Source: a virus
Virus record (IMG/VR): IMGVR_UViG_3300034062_004364
Span: 1-28,259 of that record
Direction: 5' to 3' (one strand)
DNA length: 28,259 bases
Every line of letters starts with the position of its first letter. Within the stretch, counting starts at the first letter, position 1. Under the pieces are notes generated by a model. The model did not search any database and was not told where the DNA came from. It saw nothing but the letters and a program-made list of their open reading frames with translations. The position numbers and the translations under genes were made by a program. This document shows positions 7,442 to 23,510 of this stretch, in pieces.

Positions 7442-7633
7442 TTATTGGTTGTTTTCAGTTAGTACTTTGTGGGCTTCCTCTATTTGCTCACCGAGGTCAA
7501 CGGATAGCATCTCAATGATGTCGAAGGCAATTAATTTGTTTCGCGTTTGGTCGTCAGTTGCATTGACGAAGTCTCCAACAGCATTTAGGTACTCGGCATA
7601 TGCTCGTACCATATTCTTTAATTCAGTTTTCAT
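7442..7633 (-). CDS. Hypothetical helical protein, 63 aa
   Basis: Not recognised. Predicted to be almost wholly alpha-helical (MKTELKNMVRAYAEYLNAVG then DFVNATDDQTRNKLIAFDII). No membrane segment. The start at 7633 has the ATAGAACCTATG context and lies 20 bases after the stop of the 57-aa gene. Part of the P3 unit, downstream of both hammerhead ribozymes. Confidence 0.7.
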   Translation of the reverse strand: MKTELKNMVRAYAEYLNAVGDFVNATDDQTRNKLIAFDIIEMLSVDLGEQIEEAHKVLTENNQ

Positions 7634-7653: not shown

Positions 7654-7827
7654 TTAGTAAGGTTGTAGAGTAGTGTAGCCGTAGGCGATTATTTTGCCTT
7701 GGGCAAGTAGGTTATTAAGTTCCTTTGAGAACGCAGTCTCGCTTGGAGCCTTGTCAGATACAACGTCAAACGTTACCTCTGTAGTCACTCCCTTGTTGGC
7801 AGTCCTTGAAAAAAATGTATGGTTCAT
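7654..7827 (-). CDS. Hypothetical protein, 57 aa, first gene after hammerhead 2
   Basis: Read directly: ATG at 7827, TAA at 7654-7656. The protein (MNHTFFSRTANKGVTTEVTF, then DVVSDKAPSETAFSKELNNL) looks like a beta-hairpin followed by a helix. No family recognised. Cleavage at hammerhead 2 would leave its message with a short 5'-OH leader of about 21 bases (UUAACC then an A-rich stretch), so its translation may depend on that processing. Confidence 0.65.
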   Translation of the reverse strand: MNHTFFSRTANKGVTTEVTFDVVSDKAPSETAFSKELNNLLAQGKIIAYGYTTLQPY

Positions 7828-7842
7828 AGTCAATTGTTTTTT

Positions 7843-7894
7843 GGTTAAGATGCCTCACGGCATTTCGGCTAATGTCAAGCCTCTTCAGTTAACC
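7843..7894 (-). ncRNA. Hammerhead ribozyme 2 (type I, 52 nt)
   Basis: Minus-strand RNA, 5' to 3': stem I strand GGUUAA (7894-7889); core CUGAAGA (7888-7882); stem II GGCU / AGCC (7881-7878 and 7870-7867) with a 7-base loop; GAAA (7866-7863); stem III UGCC / GGCA (7862-7859 and 7854-7851) closed by a GUGA tetraloop; UC (7850-7849); stem I strand UUAACC (7848-7843). All invariant hammerhead positions are present, including the G-C closing pair of stem II and the A-U pair beside the cleavage site. Cleavage is expected after C7849. The UGA stop codon of the gene ending at 7885 is part of the CUGAAGA core. Confidence 0.9.
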
Positions 7895-8253
7895 TCTTTA
7901 GTGTCATTATCATATATTACGTTCACCAACTGAATGGCGGCATTGTCACCGATAAATTCACGGGCAGTGAGGTATGCCTCTGTGCGGCTCACTCGCAGTC
8001 CTCCTAAAAGGAAGTCGAATAGTGTGCCGTTAGTATATTCTACGCTACGTACAAATACCGATTCATTGGTCAGCAACTTCATTAGCGACTTCACTAATTC
8101 GGTCTCGGTAAAGAACTCTTCCCTCGCACTTCCTTTGCGAAGATTGCCGACTTGTAGGAGTTTAGTGGTCTCTGCCTTGTCGGTGTAGCGCATTAAGAAA
8201 TCTACCTCTCGGCCTGTTTTTTTGCTTTGTAGTCTAACTTTAAACTCTCCCAT
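7885..8253 (-). CDS. Hypothetical protein, 122 aa, flanked by two hammerhead ribozymes
   Basis: Not recognised. The protein starts MGEFKVRLQSKKTGREVDFL, is rich in beta strand then helix (FFTETELVKSLMKLLTNESV), and ends in VIYDNDTKEVN. No catalytic motif or membrane segment is visible. Hammerhead 1 lies 18 bases upstream of its ATG, and its last codons (GTT AAC TGA) form stem I and part of the core of hammerhead 2. Self-cleavage at both would release this gene as a separate 428-nt RNA. Its leader after cleavage is about 23 bases, A/U-rich. Likely the first real protein of the P3 unit. Confidence 0.8.
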   Translation of the reverse strand: MGEFKVRLQSKKTGREVDFLMRYTDKAETTKLLQVGNLRKGSAREEFFTETELVKSLMKLLTNESVFVRSVEYTNGTLFDFLLGGLRVSRTEAYLTAREFIGDNAAIQLVNVIYDNDTKEVN

Positions 8254-8270
8254 TTTGATTTGATTTTAGT

Positions 8271-8322
8271 GGTTAAGACCTACCGAAGTAGGTTTCGGCT
8301 CATTAAGCCTCATCAGTTAACC
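8271..8322 (-). ncRNA. Hammerhead ribozyme 1 (type I, 52 nt)
   Basis: Minus-strand RNA, 5' to 3': stem I strand GGUUAA (8322-8317); core CUGAUGA (8316-8310); stem II GGCU / AGCC (8309-8306 and 8300-8297) with a 5-base loop; GAAA (8296-8293); stem III CCUAC / GUAGG (8292-8288 and 8283-8279) capped by a UUCG tetraloop; UC (8278-8277); stem I strand UUAACC (8276-8271). This is a textbook type I hammerhead with the classic GUC cleavage triplet; cleavage is expected after C8277. Compared with hammerhead 2, stem III has a different sequence but stays fully paired, while core and stem I are kept. Confidence 0.93.
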
Positions 8323-8360
8323 TTATTAATGTTTTCGGCTAGATTTACGTGAATTTTCAT
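8313..8360 (-). CDS. 15-codon leader peptide ending in hammerhead 1
   Basis: ATG at 8360, TGA at 8315-8313, peptide MKIHVNLAENINKVN. It is the first ATG after promoter P3 (leader about 28 bases). Its last codons GTT AAC TGA form stem I and the start of the CUGAUGA core of hammerhead 1, exactly as the 122-aa gene does with hammerhead 2. A terminating ribosome would cover the ribozyme, so this may be a translated regulator rather than a functional peptide. It could also be a chance frame or the remnant of a longer gene. Confidence 0.45.
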   Translation of the reverse strand: MKIHVNLAENINKVN

Positions 8361-8425: not shown

Positions 8426-8528
8426 GTTTTTAGGTGAAAGTTTTTTTGATTCACCCGTAACTTGCTGATAATCACCGACAAAAGTTTTAGTCAGAGGGTT
8501 AGCGTAGGTGCATAACCATTGCCATAGT

Positions 8529-8587
8529 GGGGGAAAGTGGGAGGTAGTGGGAGGTAAGGGAGTAGTTAGGGAGTAGTTAGGGAGGGG
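8529..8587 (+). repeat. Array of seven G-runs, potential G-quadruplex
   Basis: G-runs of 3 to 5 occur at 8529-8533, 8539-8541, 8549-8551, 8558-8560, 8569-8571, 8580-8582 and 8584-8587, separated by 1-8 bases. The array is built from short tandem units (GTGGGAGGTA twice, then GGGAGTAGTTA twice). The strand is almost free of C, so it satisfies the usual quadruplex pattern several times over. Confidence 0.7.
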
Positions 8588-8598
8588 TTATTGTTCCA

Positions 8599-8614
8599 CT
8601 CTTGTGAACAAGAG
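8599..8614. promoter_or_regulatory. Perfect 7+7 dyad, possible operator
   Basis: CTCTTGT, two bases, ACAAGAG: a perfect inverted repeat with a two-base centre, typical of a dimeric repressor site. It lies next to the G-run array and about 170 bases upstream of P3. Confidence 0.45.
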
Positions 8615-8804
8615 CAAACCAAACCACAATACCAATCAACATCCAAATGCCAACAAGTAGTACGCATTAGCGCAGTTAGTTACTTACCATAGCGCACCTA
8701 CCAAAACGCCAAAATCCTGCAATAGGAATCAGCGCACGCGAGGGGCATACCTGTGGGATTGCGTTTCCGTTTGCGCGTGCGTACGTTTATATATGTATAT
8801 TATC

Positions 8805-8844
8805 CCCCAGATAATTATATCTAACCCCAGATAATTATTTCTAA
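8805..8844. repeat. Two adjacent 20-bp direct repeats
   Basis: CCCCAGATAATTATATCTAA (8805-8824) is followed at once by a copy differing at one base (8825-8844). Each unit contains an AT-rich near-palindrome (AGATAATTAT). Adjacent iterons beside an AT-rich stretch (8785-8803) suggest an initiator or repressor binding site. Confidence 0.65.
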
Positions 8845-8861
8845 CTCGAATGCTTCTGACG

Positions 8862-8877
8862 TCAACCCTTAGGTTGA
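8862..8877. other. Hairpin, 6-bp stem
   Basis: TCAACC, CTTA loop, GGTTGA: a perfect 6-bp stem with a four-base loop. No T-tract follows on either strand. Confidence 0.5.
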
Positions 8878-8951
8878 GGAAGAAGCTGCATAAGTAAACC
8901 TATAGGCTGACTAATAGGAGTCTTAATAGCTGTTAAATGATTAGGGACTGG

Positions 8952-8986
8952 GGAGGTGGAGGGTCCCTAAGGACCCGTATACCTCC
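8952..8986. other. Two-part hairpin in the control region
   Basis: GGAGGT (8952-8957) pairs with ACCTCC (8981-8986), and inside it GGGTCC (8961-8966) pairs with GGACCC (8971-8976) around a CTAA loop. Both stems are perfect 6-bp helices separated by a small asymmetric internal loop. There is no T-tract, so it is more like a structured RNA element or protein site than a terminator. Confidence 0.6.
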
Positions 8987-9107
8987 ATTGGTTTAGCTTT
9001 TATATGTATTAAAACGAGTAAACAACAGCTATAATAGCGGTAGAACGAATAGACTATAGTTGTCGCGTATTCATTAGTAGCTGAGCGTCTTATCACTGAT
9101 GAACGTG

Positions 9108-9135
9108 GGGTGTCTCTGCTTAGGCGACGACACCC
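9108..9135. other. Hairpin, 7-bp stem
   Basis: GGGTGTC (9108-9114) pairs with GACACCC (9129-9135) around a 14-base loop. A CTGATGA lies just upstream at 9097-9103, but no GAAA element follows, so it is not a hammerhead. Confidence 0.5.
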
Positions 9136-9149
9136 TGTCTCTTGTTAGC

Positions 9150-9177
9150 TAAAGCGATTGTCTTTTAGATCGCTTTA
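9150..9177. other. Hairpin, 9-bp stem
   Basis: TAAAGCGAT (9150-9158) pairs perfectly with ATCGCTTTA (9169-9177) around a 10-base loop. No clear T-tract follows on either strand. It is one of a series of hairpins between 8860 and 9180. Confidence 0.55.
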
Positions 9178-9377
9178 AATTGTTTCCTTAGTACTATAGA
9201 GCCTTAAGCTATGCGAAGTTACACATCACAGACGACATTAGCAAGTCCCTGAAGAAAAGATATAGTGTTTGTTATCAGTTAGTTATCTAATAGCCTACTA
9301 ATTTACTAGGTATTAATTCTGCTTACGGAGGGTATTTGGGGCCTATATGGCGTAAATAACAGCAATATATCGCATTG

Positions 9378-9385
9378 TATATTTG
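9378..9385 (+). promoter_or_regulatory. -7 box for the M15 peptidase gene
   Basis: TATATTTG ends four bases before the ATG at 9390, so the transcript would start at or beside the start codon and be leaderless. No convincing -33 TTG is seen at the expected distance. Confidence 0.6.
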
Positions 9386-9389
9386 CTTT

Positions 9390-9854
9390 ATGAAATTAAG
9401 TAACTACGTATCGCTAGCTGAGGTCACTAAGAGTGATACCGCAAAGCGCAAGGGTATCAGCAACGAGCCAACCCCAGAGCATCTAGAGAACCTAAAGACA
9501 ATATCTGTTGAGGTGTTCGATAAGATTCGTGAGCACTTCGGTGTTCCCATCTACATCTCTTCGGGCTACAGATCTACTGCCTTGAATAAGGCAATCGGGG
9601 GTAGCAAGAACTCGGACCATAATCTTGGTAGGGCTTTAGACCTAGACCAAGATGGTAGGGGTAATGGTATTACTAATATGGAGGTGTTTGAGTTTATCAA
9701 GGACAACCTAGAGTTCGACCAGCTCATCTACGAGTTTGGCACCATTAAGAACCCTGACTGGGTTCACGTGGGATACCGCAAGGGGGAGAACAGAAAGCAG
9801 ATACTTGTAGCCTACAAGGAGGGCACCAAGACAAAATACAAAGCATTTAAATAA
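9390..9854 (+). CDS. Peptidase M15 endolysin-type protein, 154 aa
   Basis: Zinc peptidase of the M15 family (D-Ala-D-Ala carboxypeptidase/L-alanyl-D-glutamate type), which cuts peptidoglycan peptides and in phages usually serves as endolysin. Motifs: ISSGYRSTALNKAIGG (residues 56-71), SDHNLGRALDLD with metal ligands H77 and D84, and WVHVGYR with ligand H126. The frame can begin at a TTG at 9375, but that codon is within the promoter region, so ATG 9390 is preferred. No signal peptide is seen; export would need a holin, not identified. First gene of the rightward arm. Confidence 0.9.
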   Translation: MKLSNYVSLAEVTKSDTAKRKGISNEPTPEHLENLKTISVEVFDKIREHFGVPIYISSGYRSTALNKAIGGSKNSDHNLGRALDLDQDGRGNGITNMEVFEFIKDNLEFDQLIYEFGTIKNPDWVHVGYRKGENRKQILVAYKEGTKTKYKAFK

Positions 9855-9862
9855 TATCTTTG
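9855..9862 (+). promoter_or_regulatory. -7 box upstream of the Gly/Lys/Met-rich gene
   Basis: TATCTTTG directly follows the stop of the M15 gene and ends five bases before the next ATG at 9868, again pointing to a leaderless message. Confidence 0.6.
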
Positions 9863-9867
9863 TACCT

Positions 9868-10494
9868 ATGAAAGCAAAGATGACTGTTTACAAGAATGGT
9901 GGCAAGACGCCAATCGTTCCAGACCCCAAGAAGAAGATGACCGATATGGAGATTGCCAAGGCAAACCGTATGGATATGCTAACCCAGGAGCGCAACACCA
10001 TTCGCAAGAATGACCCAGATGCGCTAGCAGCTTTCGACCGCGGACTAAAGGAGCAAGGCTTTATGGTCAACAAGAAGCCAGCCGCTAAGCCCGCTGCCGC
10101 AGCCGTCAAGAAGATGATGGGCGGAGGCAAGATGGATATGTACCTTAATGGCGGAAAGGTAGGAAACAAAGTCAAAAGACTTGAGAATCGCGAAGCCAGC
10201 CTTGTAGCGCGTGGCAGCAAAGCTGTAGACGAGGGTAGGGAGCGTAAGGCTGACCGACTTCTCGGGAAAGCAGCTCGCGTAGAAAACCGTGTAATAAAGG
10301 CCAAAGAATCCGCTTCCGTCAAGAAGATGTCCGGCGGAGGTAAAATGGATATGTACTCTAAGGGAGGCAAGATGGATACATACGGTATGGGAGGCAAGAT
10401 GAAGAAGTACCTTATGGGCGGCCAAGTAAAGATTGACAAGAACAAGGACGGAAAGATTTCCGCCATTGACTTTAAGATGCTAAAGAAAAAGTAA
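9868..10494 (+). CDS. Gly/Lys/Met-rich basic protein with EF-hand loop, 208 aa
   Basis: Function unknown. A highly basic protein with repeated GGGKMDMY / GGKMDTY / GGKMKKY units (residues 85-92, 156-163, 166-172, 175-181), a central basic helical region (RLENREASLVARGSKAVDEG then RERKADRLL) and a C-terminal canonical calcium loop DKNKDGKISAID (190-201), with acidic or polar ligands at 190, 192, 194 and 201 and Gly at 195. Similar low-complexity proteins are common beside structural genes of Bacteroidota phages, as far as I recall. The MKAK start is shared with the genes at 10501 and 11593. Confidence 0.8.
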   Translation: MKAKMTVYKNGGKTPIVPDPKKKMTDMEIAKANRMDMLTQERNTIRKNDPDALAAFDRGLKEQGFMVNKKPAAKPAAAAVKKMMGGGKMDMYLNGGKVGNKVKRLENREASLVARGSKAVDEGRERKADRLLGKAARVENRVIKAKESASVKKMSGGGKMDMYSKGGKMDTYGMGGKMKKYLMGGQVKIDKNKDGKISAIDFKMLKKK

Positions 10495-10500
10495 ACAGCT

Positions 10501-10677
10501 ATGAAGGCCAAGAAGTACAACTACGGTGGTAAGATGAGTGATGAGTCCAGCGAGGAGATTGAGATCAAGTCAATGGATATGGCCTCTGGGATGAAGCAGC
10601 TTGAAGCTGCTGTCAAGGCTTCAGGCAAGACTCCTACTCACTACAAGTTCAAGGCTTGCTTCTACGGTGAAGACTAA
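10501..10677 (+). CDS. Hypothetical protein, 58 aa
   Basis: Read directly: ATG at 10501, TAA at 10675-10677. The start MKAKKYNYGGKM repeats the GGKM motif of the preceding protein, so the two are probably related. The rest (DESSEEIEIKSMDMASGMKQ then LEAAVKASGKTPTHYKF) is a charged helical region. Six bases separate it from the upstream gene, and its 3' end overlaps the next gene by 11 bases. Confidence 0.7.
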   Translation: MKAKKYNYGGKMSDESSEEIEIKSMDMASGMKQLEAAVKASGKTPTHYKFKACFYGED

Positions 10678-10885
10678 GAAGTACTACGACAGCAACCCTA
10701 AGGCTTACCAAAAGAAGAAGGAGTACGATACAGAGTATCACTCCACCGACGAGCGTAAGAAGTATCGGGCGGAGCTCAACAGAAAGAACCGCCAAGCTGG
10801 AAAGTACGGAAACGGAGATGGTATGGACTACGACCATACCGAGCGTAGGTTTATATCAGCAGTAAAGAACAGATCTAAAAAGTAA
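10667..10885 (+). CDS. Conserved basic protein with YGNGDGMD motif, 72 aa
   Basis: The open frame reaches back to 10601, but that part overlaps the 58-aa gene; I favour GTG at 10667, giving a start of (M)KTKKYYDSNPKAYQKKKEY. It is very basic and helical (TERRFISAVKNRSKK at the end) with a GKYGNGDGMDYDH motif near the middle. I recall similar short proteins with this YGNGDGxD-x-x-H pattern in other Bacteroidota phages, usually near structural genes. A nucleic-acid binding role is plausible but unproven. Confidence 0.7.
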   Translation: MKTKKYYDSNPKAYQKKKEYDTEYHSTDERKKYRAELNRKNRQAGKYGNGDGMDYDHTERRFISAVKNRSKK

Positions 10886-10897
10886 ACAACCCCCAAT

Positions 10898-11593
10898 ATG
10901 AAAAGTACATTATTATCACTGCTTGCTGCTTCAGCACTACTAAGCTGCGCGAGCGAAGAATCGAAAGACGCTAAGGCTCTTAAGATCCACGAAGGCCTTT
11001 ATGCCTTCTGTGGAGCATCAGGTGCGGAGCTTACTGGAAAGCAGATCATAGTTCAGGGAAAGGTATTTGAAGAGGGTTGTTCTATCTGTCCAGTTCTGGA
11101 TGGACCTTCAGTCTCTAATCTCGCTATGGAAGGCTATAGTTTTAGCTGGGGCTCTGAGTTCAGCACCGATAAAAACTTTCAGTACCCAAACAACGACGGA
11201 AGCACAATATGGGACGGTAAGTCAGTGTGGTCTTTGTATTGGTATTTCGATACCTCTAGCTTTATCCCCCAGTACAATCCAAAGACTCAGGATTGGGAGA
11301 TGATGCACCCAAAGAACCGATCGTTTATCGTTAACACAGACTACGCGGTAACAAGCGAGAGCAATATGTTCTGTATGCCCTGTGCGATTTTTGATACCAC
11401 AGAAACAGGAATCGTTCTAGCTAAATGCTACGGACCTATGAATGAGGCTGCTGTTCCTCTGCGTAGGGCTATCGAAGTGAAGACTGGTATGAAGTCAATC
11501 ACCGCAGCGATAGCAGGAAAGCCATACCCGGTGGGGACACCAGTTCCCGTTATGGAGATGAGCAAGAAAGCACAGAAAAAAGCAAAACCATAA
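10898..11593 (+). CDS. Predicted lipoprotein, 231 aa
   Basis: The N-terminus MKSTLLSLLAASALLSC is a lipoprotein signal peptide with the lipobox Cys at residue 17. The mature protein has several Cys pairs (EGCSICP, MFCMPCA, AKCYG) that could form disulphides or bind metal, and aromatic-rich segments such as SVWSLYWYFD. The C-terminus is basic (MSKKAQKKAKP). No known family. In phages, lipoproteins may block superinfection or act as outer-membrane spanins; at 231 aa the former fits better, but this is inference. Stop and next start overlap (TAATG). Confidence 0.75.
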   Translation: MKSTLLSLLAASALLSCASEESKDAKALKIHEGLYAFCGASGAELTGKQIIVQGKVFEEGCSICPVLDGPSVSNLAMEGYSFSWGSEFSTDKNFQYPNNDGSTIWDGKSVWSLYWYFDTSSFIPQYNPKTQDWEMMHPKNRSFIVNTDYAVTSESNMFCMPCAIFDTTETGIVLAKCYGPMNEAAVPLRRAIEVKTGMKSITAAIAGKPYPVGTPVPVMEMSKKAQKKAKP

Positions 11594-11766
11594 TGAAAGC
11601 AAAGAAGAAAGACAGCCACGTAATGGTTCCAGCACCAGCGGGCCACCACTGGATGATGGAGAAAGGTCGTTACTATGTGATGGCTGACAAGGATGGGAAG
11701 TTTACCCCTCACGAAGGAGCTTCGAAGGAGGCAAAATTCCGGCTATACTCCGCCCATCAATCTTAG
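11593..11766 (+). CDS. Hypothetical protein, 57 aa
   Basis: Read directly: ATG at 11593 overlaps the TAA of the lipoprotein gene, and TAG is at 11764-11766. The protein (MKAKKKDSHVMVPAPAGHHW then MMEKGRYYVMADKDGKFTPH) has a basic start and a region like a small beta unit. It runs 65 bases into the 3' end of the convergent gene at 11702-12331. No family recognised; the MKAK start is shared with two genes upstream. Confidence 0.65.
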   Translation: MKAKKKDSHVMVPAPAGHHWMMEKGRYYVMADKDGKFTPHEGASKEAKFRLYSAHQS

Positions 11767-12331
11767 CCTGAGCTATAATCTTCTTGCCAAGGGGAGTATC
11801 CTCGTGGCCCTTTAGCTTTCTGCCCAAAAGAACTGTAGGTATACCCTCTGCCCTGTTTGGGATGGTCTTGTTGATAGTTTTTTTGTCGTACTGAAGCTCC
11901 ACAGTCTCCCTACCGGAGGCTATATCCCTCCATCTTTCCACAATCATACGCCCCTGCTGGGTTAGTGAGTACCTTTTTCGGTAGTTCCACCTGTTCTCAT
12001 CACGAAACCACATAGAGGTGTCCTTGTGGATGTCGATATCCTCCATCGAGAAGTAGTCGAACAGCAATTCCCGCTTCCTCATCCTAACAGTTAGCCAGTC
12101 CTTTGTCTGGTTGTAGGACTTCGACAGCTGTTGTCCCATCCACTCGATGGTAAAAAACTCTAGGTCGTAGGCAAACAGAAGGAAGTCTACCTGTATTGGC
12201 AGTAGCTTATACTCCTGCTTCATAAACTTGTTGGCGTGCCAGACGAATTTGTATAGGGTAGGCCCACGATCGTCGCGGTAGGCGAAGTCCCTAAACTTTA
12301 GGTCTTCCTTTTTCTTGAACTTTTTAGCCAA
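11702..12331 (-). CDS. Possible winged-helix regulator, 209 aa, only minus-strand gene of the right arm
   Basis: Starts at a TTG (12331), preceded by a minus-strand TAnnTTTG box. The basic N-terminus (MAKKFKKKEDLKFRDFAYRD) is followed by a helical region YKLLPIQVDFLLFAYDLEFF, TIEWMGQQLSKSYNQTKDWL and then YSLTQQGRMIVERWRD (about 141-156), which looks like the last strand and helix of a winged-helix domain (MarR/PadR-like). That makes a DNA-binding regulator likely. The C-terminal 50 residues are basic and poorly structured. Its divergent orientation from the structural genes would suit a switch for late expression. Fold call is by eye. Confidence 0.6.
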   Translation of the reverse strand: MAKKFKKKEDLKFRDFAYRDDRGPTLYKFVWHANKFMKQEYKLLPIQVDFLLFAYDLEFFTIEWMGQQLSKSYNQTKDWLTVRMRKRELLFDYFSMEDIDIHKDTSMWFRDENRWNYRKRYSLTQQGRMIVERWRDIASGRETVELQYDKKTINKTIPNRAEGIPTVLLGRKLKGHEDTPLGKKIIAQAKIDGRSIAGILPPSKLLREG

Positions 12332-12343
12332 TGAAGTAAATTG

Positions 12344-12362
12344 TATCTTTGTAGCAAAAGTA
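12344..12362. promoter_or_regulatory. Back-to-back promoter boxes between 11702-12331 and 12369-13346
   Basis: On the plus strand TATCTTTG (12344-12351) lies 17 bases before the ATG at 12369. On the minus strand TACTTTTG (12362-12355) lies upstream of the TTG at 12331. The two boxes are only three bases apart and face opposite ways, so RNA polymerase can occupy only one at a time. Confidence 0.55.
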
Positions 12363-12368
12363 CGAAAT

Positions 12369-13346
12369 ATGGGAACACTTAGTGGTCAGCGCGTAAAAGA
12401 TGCATTCGGTTCACTCCTTAAGATGGAGAGCGGAACAGCAACCTCGACGACTAAAATAATTGAAGACGGAGCAGGAAACGATACCGCCCTCAAACTGTCA
12501 ACGGTAAAGGTTGAGGTAAACGGAACTCTTGCCTTCACCTCTGCCCCAAGTACTGGGTCTACTGAAGTAGCAGCCCTTTTCCTTGACGCTAGCAATAACA
12601 TTGTAAAGCGTAACCTTGGAACCGCAGCGTTTACCTCAGGGGCTAGCCTAACGCCCGTTGCTCCGCTAAACATAGCTAGCAACATTATCTCCATCAGCGC
12701 ACCAACGACCTTGTCGCAGCTTACGGAGGCTACCGTTGCCATTGCAGACACCTTCCTTATCTATGATGCAACAGCTACCGTATACAAGTATGTGACCCTT
12801 GAGGACCTAACCCAGTATATGGCGGCCAACATCACCGCTGCATCACCGGGGTCTAACGGACAGATTCTTTACAACGATGGTGGAACTTCAGCAGGAGCTT
12901 CGGGGCTGTCGTACAATGACTCACCAGCCTCTGAGCAGTTTACATTTACAGGGCTAGACTTCGTTCAACGCGAGGTGTCCTCTGGAACCTGTGCCTTCTA
13001 CAGCCGCTCTGATAGCGCTGTAATCAACAACGCAGTTACCAATGGTGTGGTAACAACCTTAGAGGCAAATCTTTTTGCAGGGGCTGTTATTGTTGACTAT
13101 ATGATCTACAACTCAGGGTCTACCACTGTTCGTGTTGGTGAGATACACATTGTATGGAACCCATCAAACCTAGCAACAGCTCCATCAATTGTCGATTCTA
13201 TCAAGACGTCAATCGGAACCTCTACCGCTGCAACCTTTGTCTTCAACGCATTTATAAATTCTACTACGCTACAGCTTCGTGCCACCAATACGTTTGGCGC
13301 GAATATGACGGTACTTCTAAACTTCAAAGCCTTCTACGCATTCTAG
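12369..13346 (+). CDS. Tail fibre or decoration-like protein, 325 aa
   Basis: The frame can be read from 12315, but the promoter box lies within that stretch, so ATG 12369 (MGTLSGQRVKDAFGSLLKME) is chosen. The middle has fibre-type strings such as VEVNGTLAFTSAPSTGSTEV, AALFLDASNNIVKRNLG and SPGSNGQILYNDGGTSAG, which are typical of Bacteroidota phage fibres. The C-terminal 120 residues (from about VQREVSSGTCAFYS) appear to be a compact beta domain. A role as receptor-binding or head-decoration protein is likely; the exact location in the virion is unknown. Confidence 0.7.
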   Translation: MGTLSGQRVKDAFGSLLKMESGTATSTTKIIEDGAGNDTALKLSTVKVEVNGTLAFTSAPSTGSTEVAALFLDASNNIVKRNLGTAAFTSGASLTPVAPLNIASNIISISAPTTLSQLTEATVAIADTFLIYDATATVYKYVTLEDLTQYMAANITAASPGSNGQILYNDGGTSAGASGLSYNDSPASEQFTFTGLDFVQREVSSGTCAFYSRSDSAVINNAVTNGVVTTLEANLFAGAVIVDYMIYNSGSTTVRVGEIHIVWNPSNLATAPSIVDSIKTSIGTSTAATFVFNAFINSTTLQLRATNTFGANMTVLLNFKAFYAF

Positions 13347-16939: not shown

Positions 16940-19396
16940 ATGGATCAATACTCTGTAAAAAGTAACTCATACGACTCTACGTTCCCAGACCCTTTTGCCT
17001 CACACGATGTAAAGGTGGGCAAGAGGTACGGTCTTCAGTACGCAAAGGCTATATACGGCCAGTGGGGAAGCGCCCAGTACGAGGGGTCTCTGTACAGCAA
17101 AAGATTCCGTGAGTTTGAAGTCTCTAGGGACTACGCCAACGGAACCCAAGATACATCCATCTACAAGCAGATACTTACCTCTCTTGACCCGAACAACGGT
17201 GATGGGTCCTTGGTAAACCTAGACTGGACACCAGTTCCTATCGTTCCCAAGTTCGTAAAGATTGTAGTCAACAAGATTCTGTCTTCTAAGTTCTACCCCA
17301 ACATTGAAGCTGTTGATCCTTTGTCGCGCAGTGAGAAGGACTACGAGAAAAATAAGATGAAGATATTCATCGAGAACAAGGACATCCTAAAGGAGGCGAA
17401 GGACTCAGGACTTCGCACCGAGGTAGACCCAGACTCTCTTCCCGATACTGCTGAGGAGACCGAAATTTTCCTTGAGACTAACATCAAGACCGCTGCGGAG
17501 ATTGCTGCCCAGATTGGCATTAATCTAACGCTAAGCTGGAATGACTTCGACGAGCGCATTTTTAGGCGCAATGTCGAAGACCTCGTCACCTGTGGTATTG
17601 CTGTCACCAAGCGCAGCAACGACCCCAACTACGGAATCGTTGAGGACTATGTAGACCCAGCATTCTTTATCCACAGCTTTACCTCTGACCCCAACTTTAC
17701 GGATATAACCTACGCAGGCCACGTAAAGCGTATGAGCATCTCTGAACTTAAGCGCACAGCAGGCAACCAGTTCACCGAGGACGAGTACGAGAAGATGGCA
17801 AGGACGGTTATGAACCGCTTTGGCAATGACTCTAGCAGGCTGATGGGCTCTGGGTACGACCCAGGTATGGAGCGCTACTACTACGGATACGACGAGTACA
17901 CCATTGAAGTACTTGACTTTGAGTTTATTAGCGTTGACAACATCATCTTTGAGAAGAAGGAGTCCCGTTTTGGAAACATTGGCTTCTACTACAAGGGCCA
18001 CAAGTACAATGCCCCACAGCAGAGTGTGTATGATAGGGAGGCTGTCTATATGCAGAACCAGACGCTGTATGGTGGTAATTACATCCTAGGGACTGACTAC
18101 ATCTACGACTACGGGTTGAAGAAGAACATTCCTAAAAATGTTCACGACCTCACCCGAACCCGGATGAGCTACAGCATTGTGGCCACCAACATCCGCAAGT
18201 CTATCCCTAAGTCTATGGTCAGCGGCATCATCGGCTTTGCCGACCAGCTGCAGATCACCCACCTAAAGCTCCAGCAGTCTATCGCCAAGGCTAAGCCTGA
18301 TGGATTGATTATCGACATCGAAGGACTTGAGAACGTACAGTTAGGGCGTGGCGGAGAGCTACAGCCTTTAGACCTTCAAGACATCTACGAGCAGACAGGT
18401 ATCTTCTACTACCGCAGTAAGAACCCCGATGGTAGCTTCCAGAACCCACCGATCCGTCCCCTTGAGAACGGTATTAGGAACATCAACGAGCTCATCACCA
18501 TCTACAACCACGCCCTGCGTATGATTCGTGATGCTACGGGCATCAACGAGGTTATGGACGGAACGAGTCCTAAGGGAGACCAGCTTGTTGGCGTACGCCA
18601 GCAGCAACTGGCGGCAGGCAACAATGCTCTTGGGGATATTAGCAATGCAGCGATTGTGCTGTACCGCAGGATCTGTGAGGACGTTGTGAAGTGTCTTCAG
18701 ATACTTCCTCCTAAGTCTATCCTGTACAAGGCCTACGAGACGGCGATTGGCAGGGAGAATATGGCGGTGCTGTCGAGTTTCTCTAATCTGCCTATGTACA
18801 ACTTCGGCGTTAGGGTCGTCGCTGATATGAACGAGATTGACCGTATGTACCTCGAGCAAAACATCCAGGCCTCTATTGCCCAGGGCGAGCTTGACATCGA
18901 GGATGCGATTGCTATCCGTCAGTTAAGGGACATCGACCAAGCCGAGAGGTTGCTTATTGTACGCCGTAAGAAGCGTATGAAGGTTCGGCAGGAGATGGCC
19001 CAGCAGAACTCTCAGTTCCAGGCTCAGGCCAACGCACAGGTCGCTCAGGTTACAAGCCAAGCTAAGATGCAGGAAGACCAGATGAAGGCCCAGCTTGATG
19101 CTCAGAAGATTCAGCTAGAGGCTGAGGCTAAGGCTCAGCTGCTACAGGTAGAGTACGGACTTAAGATGCAGTTGGCTCAGCTGCAAGGAGACTACGGAAT
19201 CAAAGAGCAGCAGATAGAGTCGGGTGTACGCCAGACTGCCGATCAGGAGGCTGAGGACCGTAAGGACAACCGCATTAAGGAACAAGCAGTTGCGCAAAGC
19301 AAACTGATTGCCCAGCGCAAGGGAGACCGTGCGGAGTTAGAGAAGCAGGACCTCGAGGGTCAGGAGGATATTGTGGATATCATATTGAATCAATAA
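16940..19396 (+). CDS. Portal protein, 818 aa
   Basis: Dodecameric connector through which DNA enters the head. Position directly after TerL, length and content agree: an N-terminal region rich in Asp/Tyr (DWTPVPIVPKFVKIVVNKIL at about 95-114), a long central domain with KSIPKSMVSGIIGFADQLQI and DATGINEVMDGTSPKGDQLV (about 533-552), then a helix and a C-terminal coiled coil rich in Gln, Ala and Lys (about 685-805, for example QAKMQEDQMKAQLDAQKIQL). The long coiled-coil tail is larger than in most portals and may reach into the head. No frameshift seen. Confidence 0.85.
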   Translation: MDQYSVKSNSYDSTFPDPFASHDVKVGKRYGLQYAKAIYGQWGSAQYEGSLYSKRFREFEVSRDYANGTQDTSIYKQILTSLDPNNGDGSLVNLDWTPVPIVPKFVKIVVNKILSSKFYPNIEAVDPLSRSEKDYEKNKMKIFIENKDILKEAKDSGLRTEVDPDSLPDTAEETEIFLETNIKTAAEIAAQIGINLTLSWNDFDERIFRRNVEDLVTCGIAVTKRSNDPNYGIVEDYVDPAFFIHSFTSDPNFTDITYAGHVKRMSISELKRTAGNQFTEDEYEKMARTVMNRFGNDSSRLMGSGYDPGMERYYYGYDEYTIEVLDFEFISVDNIIFEKKESRFGNIGFYYKGHKYNAPQQSVYDREAVYMQNQTLYGGNYILGTDYIYDYGLKKNIPKNVHDLTRTRMSYSIVATNIRKSIPKSMVSGIIGFADQLQITHLKLQQSIAKAKPDGLIIDIEGLENVQLGRGGELQPLDLQDIYEQTGIFYYRSKNPDGSFQNPPIRPLENGIRNINELITIYNHALRMIRDATGINEVMDGTSPKGDQLVGVRQQQLAAGNNALGDISNAAIVLYRRICEDVVKCLQILPPKSILYKAYETAIGRENMAVLSSFSNLPMYNFGVRVVADMNEIDRMYLEQNIQASIAQGELDIEDAIAIRQLRDIDQAERLLIVRRKKRMKVRQEMAQQNSQFQAQANAQVAQVTSQAKMQEDQMKAQLDAQKIQLEAEAKAQLLQVEYGLKMQLAQLQGDYGIKEQQIESGVRQTADQEAEDRKDNRIKEQAVAQSKLIAQRKGDRAELEKQDLEGQEDIVDIILNQ

Positions 19397-20003: not shown

Positions 20004-21734
20004 ATGTCTTCATTTTACTCAGACGCTTCATTGGTAATGATCCCCTCGGGGTACAAGAACGCAAAGGTCTACTGTGCGGTGCCAACGGACGGGCTAGGAG
20101 ATTTGACCTTTACCCGTGCCTCAAGCGCCACCCGAGTGGCTTCAAACGGCCTTATTGAGAAGGTGCGGACTAATCTTTGTTTACAATCAAATGGTTTTAA
20201 TACTGCATCTTGGACAGTGAGTTCGGCAACCGTCACAAGTGGGCAAGCTGGGTATGATGGTACGAACAACGCTTATGAACTTACATCTACAGTAAATGGC
20301 GGTAATATTTTTCAAACCAACACGCAAAGCGGGGTACAAACCTATAGCGTATATGCAAAAGGAAGCGTATCTAACGGCATACGACTCTTTGCTCCCGGTA
20401 CTGTAAATTGTTCTGCATATTTTAATCTAAATCTTGGCACTGTTGGCACAATTACTGGAGGCGCAACTGCTAAAATTGATTCTGTCGGTAACGGTTGGTT
20501 CCGTTGTTCAATTTCATTTGACCAAACAAATCTAACTTTGCGTTTTTACCCAACTAACAACGCAAACGCTCAAGCTGCTGGAACGATTTTTATTCAAAAC
20601 TCCCAACTTGAAACGGGCGACATAGCAACCGACTACATCCCCACCACCACCACCGCAGTAAGCGTTGGCCCCGTAAGCGGTTTACCCCGTTTGGACTACC
20701 TTAATAGCACTTGCCCTAAACTTCTCTTGGAACCTCAGCGGACGAACTTGGTTACGTTCTCGGAGCAGTTTAACAATGCCGCTTGGACAACGCAGGAAGT
20801 AAATGTCACGGCTAACGCAGCGATAGCACCCGATGGCACGCAGTCAGCGGATAATATCGTGCCAACTGCAATAAGTGGCACACACCAAATTTTTAGCAGC
20901 GCTTTAGTTTCCTCATCGCAATGCGCAATGAGTGTTTTTGCAAAAGCAAACGGGTACACCACGTTTCATATGCTTGATAGGGCAAGCGGTTCAAATGGCG
21001 CTGTATTTAATTTAGCAAACGGGACCGTTACAAACGCAGGAAGTGGAACGGGTACAATTACCGCAATGGGGAACGGATGGTACCGATGCACTGCCGTTGC
21101 AACCACTACGGGCGTTCGTTTTTACGTTCCAACCTCAGCAAGTAATTTTACTGGCGATGGTACAAGTGGTGTTCTTTTATGGGGCGCACAAGTTGAAGCG
21201 GGAGCCTACGCCAGCTCGTACATCCCCACGCTTGCAGCATCAGTTACAAGGGTTGCGGAGCTTGCTCAAAAGCCTTCAGCTTCTGCCTTGATTGGAACTA
21301 CAAGCGGAACGGCTTATATGTCGTTTGTAATGGATTCGGACACCTCTGCTGATGTAACTACTTTATTGGGGTTGCATTTTTCAACCTCTATATCAAATAG
21401 AATACAATTATACTCAAGATTTGGCGTTGTAAGTCTATTGGTTGTTGCGGGCGGCACCATTATATCAAATGTTACTCTGTATGATGCTGCTCCAAATCAG
21501 CTTGTAAATGTTGCGTTTACTTACGGCCCCGCTGGCGTTCGTGCTTACGTCAATGGAACACAAGTTTACAATACTGCTACGGCAATATCGTTTACCGAAA
21601 CCTTGAATCTTTACACTATTTGCAACCGAAGCGGAATTGATGATCTTGGCAAAGGCCAACGAATTGCCCAAAGTTTATTGTTTAAAGACCGAGTTTTAAC
21701 CAATGCCCAACTGGCAGAATTAACCACCTTATGA
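20004..21734 (+). CDS. LamG-type tail fibre/receptor-binding protein A, 576 aa
   Basis: Probable adhesin. The N-terminus has YSDASLVMIPSGYKNAKVYC then LTFTRASSATRVASNGLIEK, a motif common in phage fibre proteins. Two successive carbohydrate-binding-like beta units follow (about 52-215 and 247-405), each starting RTNL and ending QLETG.. DYIPT or QVEAGAYASSYIPT. The C-terminus (about 415-576) has a concanavalin/LamG pattern (LVNVAFTYGPAGVRAYVNGT ... LLFKDRVLTNAQLAELTTL). The next gene but one is a paralogue. The interior uses more A/T at third codon positions than its flanks, suggesting exchanged segments. Confidence 0.8.
   Translation: MSSFYSDASLVMIPSGYKNAKVYCAVPTDGLGDLTFTRASSATRVASNGLIEKVRTNLCLQSNGFNTASWTVSSATVTSGQAGYDGTNNAYELTSTVNGGNIFQTNTQSGVQTYSVYAKGSVSNGIRLFAPGTVNCSAYFNLNLGTVGTITGGATAKIDSVGNGWFRCSISFDQTNLTLRFYPTNNANAQAAGTIFIQNSQLETGDIATDYIPTTTTAVSVGPVSGLPRLDYLNSTCPKLLLEPQRTNLVTFSEQFNNAAWTTQEVNVTANAAIAPDGTQSADNIVPTAISGTHQIFSSALVSSSQCAMSVFAKANGYTTFHMLDRASGSNGAVFNLANGTVTNAGSGTGTITAMGNGWYRCTAVATTTGVRFYVPTSASNFTGDGTSGVLLWGAQVEAGAYASSYIPTLAASVTRVAELAQKPSASALIGTTSGTAYMSFVMDSDTSADVTTLLGLHFSTSISNRIQLYSRFGVVSLLVVAGGTIISNVTLYDAAPNQLVNVAFTYGPAGVRAYVNGTQVYNTATAISFTETLNLYTICNRSGIDDLGKGQRIAQSLLFKDRVLTNAQLAELTTL
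20631..20695 (+). repeat. 65-bp repeat shared with 22443-22507
   Basis: The stretch encoding DYIPTTTTAVSVGPVSGLPR is the same in both fibre genes at 63 of 65 bases, while sequences on either side differ widely. It could serve as a recombination seam between the paralogues. Confidence 0.8.
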
Positions 21735-21833: not shown

Positions 21834-23510
21834 ATGAGTACCTACGATGATGCCTCTTTAGTTCTTGTCCCTTCGGGGTACAAGAATGGTATTGTATTTA
21901 GCCAGAAGCCAATGGATGCTAATGGCCAGCTGACCTTTACAAGGGCCTCAAGTGCTACCCGTGTGCAGAGTGACGGGCTAATTGAAAAGGTGCGGACTAA
22001 TTTGTTGCTTCAATCAGTTTGGCCAAACATTGGAACGGGCGTTGCGCCTACCTCGTGGGCAGCAAGTACTACTAACTTTTCCGCAGGGCCGTTGGCTGGT
22101 CAACTTTTATGCAATACAAGTGCAAGTCGTGGGTTTATTACTCAATCCGTTTCATTAACTGCTGGGCAATATGCCTTAAGTGTGTTTGTGGACTCCGTTA
22201 CTACTAGCGGCCAAATCAATCAAATGATTTCAATTTTTGGCGCAACTAGTTTAAAATACTACGAAGATGGAATAGAAGTAAGTGGAACCGCAAGCATAGT
22301 TGCTGGCAAGCGATATGCGGTAGTTGGAACTGTTACTACGGGTTCTTTTAGTATGCGGATTGGCAGTGGAGTAGATGCCAATGCTACGAATAACTTTGTT
22401 ATTTCACGCCCTCAATTAGAGGTTTCAGACTTCGGAGCAACAGACTACATCCCCACCACCACCACCGCAGTAAGCGTTGGCCCAGTGAGCGGTTTACCCC
22501 GTTTGGATTATTTGGGGTCTACTTGCCCTCGCTTGTTGCTGGAGCCGCAGCGGACGAACTTTCTGCTCAACAATTTGAGTATAATTGGCAATACAACCAG
22601 CGGACAAGCTACGCCTATAGTTAGCCCCGATGGTTACGAAAATGGCCGTTTGCCAATTCCAAGCTCAACGGCAAGCCGCTTCGAGTTTATTTTCGCTGGC
22701 GGAACATTTGCCAGTGGTACAGTACTTACCTATTCTTGGTTTGTTAAAACAGTAAGCACGCCAGCCAGCCCTTCGCCAACTACGGGCCAGCTCACGCAAT
22801 TCACCGCAAGCGTAAACGCAACGGCTGGAACGCCTACTAAAATGGCAGACTACGGCAATGGATGGGAGCGTTGGTCTATTACTTATACGGTTGTTAATGG
22901 TGCGGTAAATAGTACGTTACGAGCTTATTACGGTGGAGTTATTGGCATTGGCAATAGTTCAGTAGCGTACTACGGGCATCAAGTTGAGCAAGGCACCTAC
23001 GCAACTTCGCTCATCATTAATCAATCGGCAGCGGTGACCCGTGTGGCGGATGCTGCTTCAAAGACGGGCATTAGCTCTTTGATTGGGCAGACGGAGGGGG
23101 CTTTTTACGCTGAGTGGGAAGTTACGCAAGCCGATGGCGGAGTATACGAAATTAGTTTGAGCGATGGAAGTGCAAGCAATGCCGTGCGCCTTCGTCAAAA
23201 TTCCTCAAATACGATGCAATTGGTTGTCGCTTCTTCGGGTGCTGTTGTTGCCTCTATTTCAAGCGGAACCACAATTGTAGTCGGTCAGCGATACAAACTT
23301 GCGGCAGCATACAAACTAAACGATTTCGTTTTTTACTTAAACGGAACGCAAGTAGGTAGCGATTCTTCGGGAGCAGTTCCAGCAACTTTGACTAGCATTG
23401 GTACAAGTCGTGGAGATGGAAACTTTCCTTTTTACGGAGAACTTAACCAAGCCCTAATATTCAAGACTCGTTTAGACAACGCAACACTTCAGTCATTAAC
23501 CACTTTATAA
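21834..23510 (+). CDS. LamG-type tail fibre/receptor-binding protein B, 558 aa
   Basis: Paralogue of the 576-aa gene upstream. The N-terminal YDDASLVLVPSGYKNGIVFS and LTFTRASSATRVQSDGLIEK, then VRTNLLLQS, match fibre A closely. The first binding-like unit ends QLEVSDFGATDYIPTTTT, the second ends QVEQGTYATSLIINQSAAVT, and the C-terminus is a LamG-like sandwich (VVGQRYKLAAAYKLNDFVFY then LNGTQVGSD; ending LIFKTRLDNATLQSLTTL). The middle units differ strongly from A, so the two fibres probably see different surface glycans. The gene ends 18 bases before its small partner. Confidence 0.8.
   Translation: MSTYDDASLVLVPSGYKNGIVFSQKPMDANGQLTFTRASSATRVQSDGLIEKVRTNLLLQSVWPNIGTGVAPTSWAASTTNFSAGPLAGQLLCNTSASRGFITQSVSLTAGQYALSVFVDSVTTSGQINQMISIFGATSLKYYEDGIEVSGTASIVAGKRYAVVGTVTTGSFSMRIGSGVDANATNNFVISRPQLEVSDFGATDYIPTTTTAVSVGPVSGLPRLDYLGSTCPRLLLEPQRTNFLLNNLSIIGNTTSGQATPIVSPDGYENGRLPIPSSTASRFEFIFAGGTFASGTVLTYSWFVKTVSTPASPSPTTGQLTQFTASVNATAGTPTKMADYGNGWERWSITYTVVNGAVNSTLRAYYGGVIGIGNSSVAYYGHQVEQGTYATSLIINQSAAVTRVADAASKTGISSLIGQTEGAFYAEWEVTQADGGVYEISLSDGSASNAVRLRQNSSNTMQLVVASSGAVVASISSGTTIVVGQRYKLAAAYKLNDFVFYLNGTQVGSDSSGAVPATLTSIGTSRGDGNFPFYGELNQALIFKTRLDNATLQSLTTL
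22443..22507 (+). repeat. 65-bp repeat, second copy
   Basis: Partner of 20631-20695, with two mismatches over 65 bases. Confidence 0.8.

Follow-up and report, generated by a model that had tools for sequence, protein, structure and literature searches.

Compact type I hammerhead ribozymes at phage gene junctions and their probable role in processing early RNA

Hammerhead ribozymes cleave 3' of position H17 and leave 2',3'-cyclic phosphate and 5'-hydroxyl ends. The natural systems closest to the one described here are the arrays of Perreault et al. 2011 (PMC3088659), prophage loci in which multiple hammerheads flank one gene or a short block of genes (Agrobacterium ardA, Azorhizobium and Clostridium scindens, as well as phage PaP3). 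Cleavage was seen in vitro for three natural arrays and in vivo for one that had been cloned in E. coli, and it was proposed there that a long phage RNA is cut into gene-length mRNAs. Hammerheads likewise flank small ORFs in PMC6155905, where the role of bacterial and phage hammerheads is called an open question.

The window, that is, the whole 28,259-nt stretch of viral DNA analysed here (IMG/VR record IMGVR_UViG_3300034062_004364), and many other phage records with two to nine copies share the defining property of the arrays in PMC3088659, at least two same-strand hammerheads flanking single phage genes. The preliminary description knew of no reported case of two copies around a single early gene in a Bacteroidota phage; since the arrangement was already published in 2011, and also appears in PMC6155905, it is not new here. 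What sets the present elements apart is that they define one compact form: a stem I of exactly 6 bp, a five-nucleotide loop II of the type U-N-A-N-U, an A on both sides of stem I, and fusion to a stop codon and a leader. The main text of PMC3088659 makes no mention of stop codons. The two elements, A and B, probably self-cleave an early polycistronic RNA into gene-length mRNAs; cleavage in the cell and its benefit are what we infer from the sequence and its relatives.

Two hammerheads around one early gene

The features of the locus are as follows, the caret marking the predicted cut.

Hammerhead A (type I), 8322-8271, minus strand: GGUUAA CUGAUGA GGCUUAAUGAGCC GAAA CCUACUUCGGUAGG U C^UUAACC
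Parts of A: stem I 8322-8317/8276-8271; core CUGAUGA 8316-8310; stem-loop II 8309-8297; GAAA 8296-8293; stem-loop III 8292-8279; U16.1 8278; C17 8277
Predicted cut in A: between 8277 and 8276, minus strand, after C8277
Hammerhead B (type I), 7894-7843, minus strand: GGUUAA CUGAAGA GGCUUGACAUUAGCC GAAA UGCCGUGAGGCA U C^UUAACC
Parts of B: stem I 7894-7889/7848-7843; core CUGAAGA 7888-7882; stem-loop II 7881-7867; GAAA 7866-7863; stem-loop III 7862-7851; U16.1 7850; C17 7849
Predicted cut in B: between 7849 and 7848, minus strand, after C7849
Putative 15-codon ORF MKIHVNLAENINKVN, 8313-8360, minus strand, ending in UGA (8315-8313) within the core of A
Flanked gene, 122 aa, 7885-8253, minus strand, with relatives in L003-L005; its stop codon TGA (7887-7885) sits within the core of B
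Leader remaining on the flanked gene after the predicted cut at A, 8254-8276, minus strand, 23 nt: UUAACCACUAAAAUCAAAUCAAA before ATG 8253
Leader remaining on the next gene after the predicted cut at B, 7828-7848, minus strand, 21 nt: UUAACCAAAAAACAAUUGACU before ATG 7827
Gene downstream of B, 57 aa, 7654-7827, minus strand, starting at ATG 7827 (preferred to TTG at 7833)

Both elements contain the invariant core CUGANGA...GAAA with A15.1-U16.1 and H17. They have stem I (GGUUAA/UUAACC) in common and are identical in the core except at the free position N7, U in A and A in B, whereas stem III is wholly different and loop II partly so. The minimum-free-energy structure of each is the hammerhead itself, with three helices of which II and III are loop-closed and I is open; in the folding control, 2 of 200 shuffles were equally stable for A and 2 of 200 for B. 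A core-plus-stem II scan of both strands returned A, B and one poor match, and a pattern including stem I gave two matches in the record and none in the reversed control. The covariance model R1 scored A, which is in its training set, at 70.1 bits and B, which is outside it, at 52.8 bits, and its matches in the window were exactly A and B. The two elements are more than chance motifs. Sequence, scans and folds thus agree with the preliminary description on coordinates, core, stems, cut sites, open stem I and type I class.

The stretch between the two predicted cuts is 428 nt long (8276-7849). The 3' strand of stem I, UUAACC(A), is also the start of ordinary leaders in the window, for example UAACCAAUAAAACUAUAGAACCUAUG before the gene at 7633. 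PHROG and Pfam searches with the flanked gene gave no match, nor did tblastn searches with the flanked and neighbouring genes against cultured phages, and the AlphaFold mean pLDDT of 54 for the flanked/neighbouring gene product is too low for interpretation. The genes had been described as early genes of a Bacteroidota-type phage, which is supported: the terminase of the window is most like those of environmental, Maribacter and Flavobacterium podovirus records (38-47% identity).

Three other observations were made in the window. On the minus strand between 3356 and 7657, a conserved A-rich element of about 31 nt (AAUAACAAAUAAACAAUAGAAACUAUGACAA type) occurs six times, directly before early genes; a Shine-Dalgarno motif is absent from all six, and the element is probably a translation leader of the phage. 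A long non-coding region with short tandem repeats (8525-8556, 8557-8584 and 8805-8845) separates divergent early and late genes at 8500-9370 and is a possible origin or control region. Finally, the adjoining tail-type proteins at 20004-21734 and 21834-23510 have the same N-terminal sequence (TFTRASSATRV...EKVRTNL), apparently by duplication.

Conserved anatomy of the compact form

Two pattern searches of viral contigs gave at least 120 stretches each. The second pattern specified the core, a stem-loop II region of fixed length and G-U-C, and left stem I and the inner stem II pairs free. Among the matches listed, 116 were checked: stem II was present in 104 and stem III in 99, and a stem I of at least 6 bp was found in 93, against about 5% with shuffled partners, while only 4 reached at least 7 bp. 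Strict scans of about 2.65 Mb of the loci read backwards returned no motif. Of the 117 copies in the unbiased set, 105 have a stem I of exactly 6 bp and 98 have A.A at position 7. The fixed length fits PMC3088659, where extra base pairs in stem I cut the activity of a tested hammerhead. Where no stop codon overlaps it, the A 5' of stem I is conserved (68 of 73 copies). The five-nucleotide loop II begins with U in 104 of 105 copies, has A third in 98 and ends with U in 84.

All three stems covary. Among 52 diverse copies, two-sided changes occur at 14 of 16 pairs; these copies were chosen with their stems, which inflates the pairing percentages and leaves the diversity of the pairs unaffected. 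Their covariation score is 0.823, against 0.167 when shuffled and at most 0.095 when slid. Selection on the fold, suggested in the preliminary description from A and B, is therefore borne out in the relatives. Moreover, the core is intact in all 28 R1 matches that lie outside the reach of both bait patterns; R1 was built from intact cores and hence leans to them, and it still reports otherwise altered copies down to 27 bits.

In a mutual information analysis of the flanks against loop II, one pair stands out: position 1.7, the first nucleotide after stem I, and the last nucleotide of loop II. In raw counts over 269 copies the combination is A-U in 206, U-A in 34, A-G in 19, A-A in 6, G-G in 3, C-G in 1 and U-U in none. 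U-A is present in 21 loci, and A-U and U-A are found together within single phages (for example L006, L012, L124, L160 and L267); the pattern therefore does not go back to a single inherited change. For the compact form as a whole, these data support a tertiary partner for loop II at position 1.7, next to stem I, and the earlier view of A and B as minimal hammerheads with no loop partner is not supported. B has the A-U combination. A carries the rarer A.G variant (19 of 269) and may for this reason be slower. In O'Rourke et al. 2015, as reported in PMC9217987, pairing of the U at the seventh nucleotide past the cut with an A in loop II raises the activity of a minimal hammerhead; the constructs of PMC9217987 itself showed no such gain. 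As relayed there, both the Schistosoma-type extended hammerhead and this "uncompromised" minimal hammerhead have a contact of loop II with the nucleotide seven positions downstream of the cut, the position to which covariation points here. The natural compact form differs from the minimal hammerhead so described in having mostly A at 1.7 and U in the loop, with the U-A alternative in 21 loci.

The preliminary description had proposed the Rfam type I model as a check. Against Rfam release 15, no family matched the window at its curated cut-off. The best scores for A were 29.0 bits with RAGATH-1-hammerhead (RF03152; cut-off 56.3) and 23.6 bits with Hammerhead_3 (cut-off 48.5); B received no Rfam score at all, and Hammerhead_1 (RF00163) lists neither copy. 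None of about 45 relatives in 17 loci reached an Rfam hammerhead cut-off. At a relaxed threshold, some relatives scored 25.4-27.2 bits with Hammerhead_1, which has the same type I topology and core and a cut-off of 34 bits, and several scored 26.6-34.1 bits with RAGATH-1-hammerhead, again below 56.3. The latter has a type I core and a short stem I, as here, and is the best Rfam model for A, but in A the upstream hairpin of this model forms only in part, with a broken pair. Phage PaP3 also has no Rfam hammerhead at cut-off, whereas the model built here detects one (44114-44032, 34.9 bits), taken to be the element tested as active in the 2011 study (PMC3088659). Because the relatives and this active-tested element also fall below the cut-offs, the absence from Rfam is a coverage gap, and Rfam was rejected as an arbiter, being uninformative for the compact form.

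One could argue that the elements are relics which have lost cleavage and survive as filler between genes or as hairpins. The missed Rfam cut-offs would agree with this, and cleavage of A and B is predicted from sequence. However, every core nucleotide is kept in the 28 un-baited copies, stem I is held at 6 bp, and the pairs and the tertiary contact covary. We regard a relic as very unlikely.

Distribution and placement between stop and start codons

In 38 phage records R1 found between one and nine copies each, as a rule in clusters and all on the same strand. Among 297 Bacteroidota genomes, a copy was present only in the genome used as the centre, itself chosen for carrying one; the other 296 had none under strict filters, which weak copies could escape. 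Scarcity in these genomes, against at least 120 viral stretches, marks the form as mainly a phage feature. A BLAST search with element A in cultured phages gave one weak match only, which led to Pelagibacter phage Jormungand; the covariance model was needed for cultured phages. Cultured carriers are Flavobacterium phage elemoA_7-9A (53.3 bits), whose hammerhead region is at least 95% identical in 68 elemovirus isolates, and Jormungand (48.9 bits). In Jormungand ([GenBank:MT375528], 38217-38282) the hammerhead overlaps the annotated end of gp49; two ardA genes precede it, and marR and integrase follow, a setting that recalls the Agrobacterium ardA array in PMC3088659.

Several records merit separate mention. 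In NC_055852, where the hammerhead occupies 17287-17349 on the minus strand, elemovirus gene gp68 is annotated across it in antisense (17275-17382, plus strand); this annotation probably does not represent a real gene. The 5.8-kb contig L267 (JAAGZR010000219.1, from an 'Aliivibrio' MAG) has eight hammerheads like those of phage L012, and it is probably a piece of phage DNA that binning assigned to a Vibrio-type genome. L160 has seven copies at 8687-13236, a sub-form with a GC-rich stem I (GCCACN type) and, in most copies, the swapped U-A pair. The early region is mosaic gene by gene in L004, L005, L120 and L019 compared with the window: the same flanked gene occurs at different places and different genes occur between like hammerheads, with breakpoints about three times denser at gene junctions generally.

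In the close relatives of the window there are one to three copies, and the genes between them differ; 101 genes downstream of relatives showed no common family. Homology blocks start and stop at the elements, as would be expected if these were DNA homology for swapping single genes among phages, with RNA cleavage secondary. However, breakpoints number 6.7 per kb at hammerhead junctions against 6.5 at other gene junctions and 2.0 elsewhere, and such a role leaves the intact core and the tertiary covariation unexplained. With breakpoint densities this equal, recombination joints specific to hammerheads were rejected, and recombination as the function of the elements is extremely unlikely.

The placement of the elements is consistent with processing of the RNA. 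A same-strand ORF (ATG, at least 30 aa) starts within 80 nt past the cut in 233 of 242 evaluable copies, at a median of 24 nt (quartiles 21 and 30). Random positions on the same strand have such a start in 42% of cases, and the opposite strand in 22%. The leaders past the cut resemble leaders at ribozyme-free junctions of the same phages. For 217 upstream ORFs, the stops lie mostly at -9, -8, -3 and +1 relative to C3, which places them within stem I or the core or immediately ahead of these. In the close relative L005 the junction of the same two genes has no ribozyme, so the ribozyme is not essential there. The upstream protein ends in ...IHRDQN in L005 and in ...DTKEVN with the ribozyme; along with this different protein end, the element thus supplies its own stop codon.

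Theoretically, the overlap could couple cleavage to translation: a ribosome terminating at a stop in stem I or the core would block folding, and cleavage would then report upstream translation. The peak of stops between -9 and +1 agrees with such gating, as do GUU AAC UGA running into the core in both window elements, with the stop inside it, and the altered protein end and stop where an element is present. On the other hand, the overlap may be compaction, since the core itself gives UGA and the common ...UAA stem I gives UAA. We consider translation-gated processing rather unlikely, though it deserves some weight.

Proposed processing of early RNA

According to the best explanation, the minus-strand polycistronic early RNA would carry A and B as self-cleaving type I hammerheads, each folding as its own 3' strand emerges, its active shape held by contact of loop II with the first nucleotide past stem I. 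Each cut would fall at the border between the 3' end of the upstream gene and the standard translation leader of the next. The upstream mRNA would then have the stem III hairpin and a 2',3'-cyclic phosphate at its 3' end. Its downstream neighbour would begin with a 5'-hydroxyl and an A-rich leader of 21-23 nt, and the flanked gene would become a separate 428-nt RNA. The benefit may be independent stability and translation of each early mRNA. Support for such processing comes from the complete core, the covarying stems, the 28 intact un-baited cores, the pair between 1.7 and loop II, the placement and the leaders. It comes also from the up to nine copies per phage record, the detection of PaP3 by the model and the known cleavage of arrays.

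The same two cuts could instead serve circularisation. The released 428-nt RNA, with 5' UUAACC and 3' GGUUAA...GAAA...UC, would rebuild a hammerhead from its ends and ligate to a circular mRNA, as retrozymes and viroid-like RNAs do. Because the stem I sequences in the window are identical, this RNA can pair its own ends, and end-compatible neighbours make up 20 of 35 in the unbiased set against 4.8% of random pairs. However, the other 15 neighbouring pairs are incompatible, and copies from one phage resemble each other in stem III too (61% identity against 31%), so that duplication or shared leaders explain part of the likeness. In addition, circular or spliced products were sought by Perreault et al. 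(PMC3088659) and none were seen. In retrozymes and viroid-like circular RNAs, tandem hammerheads bound a replicating, mostly non-coding circle; the units here, unlike retrozymes, hold different protein genes, the elements lie in stop-start junctions and the stem I sequences of neighbours are often incompatible. We therefore think circularisation distinctly unlikely.

Returning to processing into separate mRNAs, we lean slightly towards a wider generalisation: that the hammerhead with a 6-bp stem I is a standard punctuation of phage operons, a module of stop codon, ribozyme and leader present up to nine times per phage, which would convert early polycistronic RNA to single-gene mRNAs with 5'-hydroxyl and hairpin ends, would be kept active by one covarying tertiary pair and is largely invisible to Rfam. 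Its carriers would be Bacteroidota phages and phages of some hosts whose leaders are Shine-Dalgarno-like. Literature searches on the compact form, mainly in the main texts of freely available journals, found only the known arrangement. What may be new is the definition of the compact form, the geometry of stop, ribozyme and leader, the natural covarying pair of 1.7 and loop II, and the absence at Rfam cut-offs; part of the compact form may be present in the alignments of the 2011 paper (PMC3088659).

In these phages the compact hammerheads make up a large, well-defined family whose spacing to stop and start codons is fixed. The gap in Rfam coverage conceals such ribozymes from routine annotation. 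Covariation supports a contact at the same position that was used for the rescue of minimal hammerheads. The cultured carriers, 68 Flavobacterium elemovirus isolates and Pelagibacter phage Jormungand, make both cleavage and its effect on the mRNAs testable.
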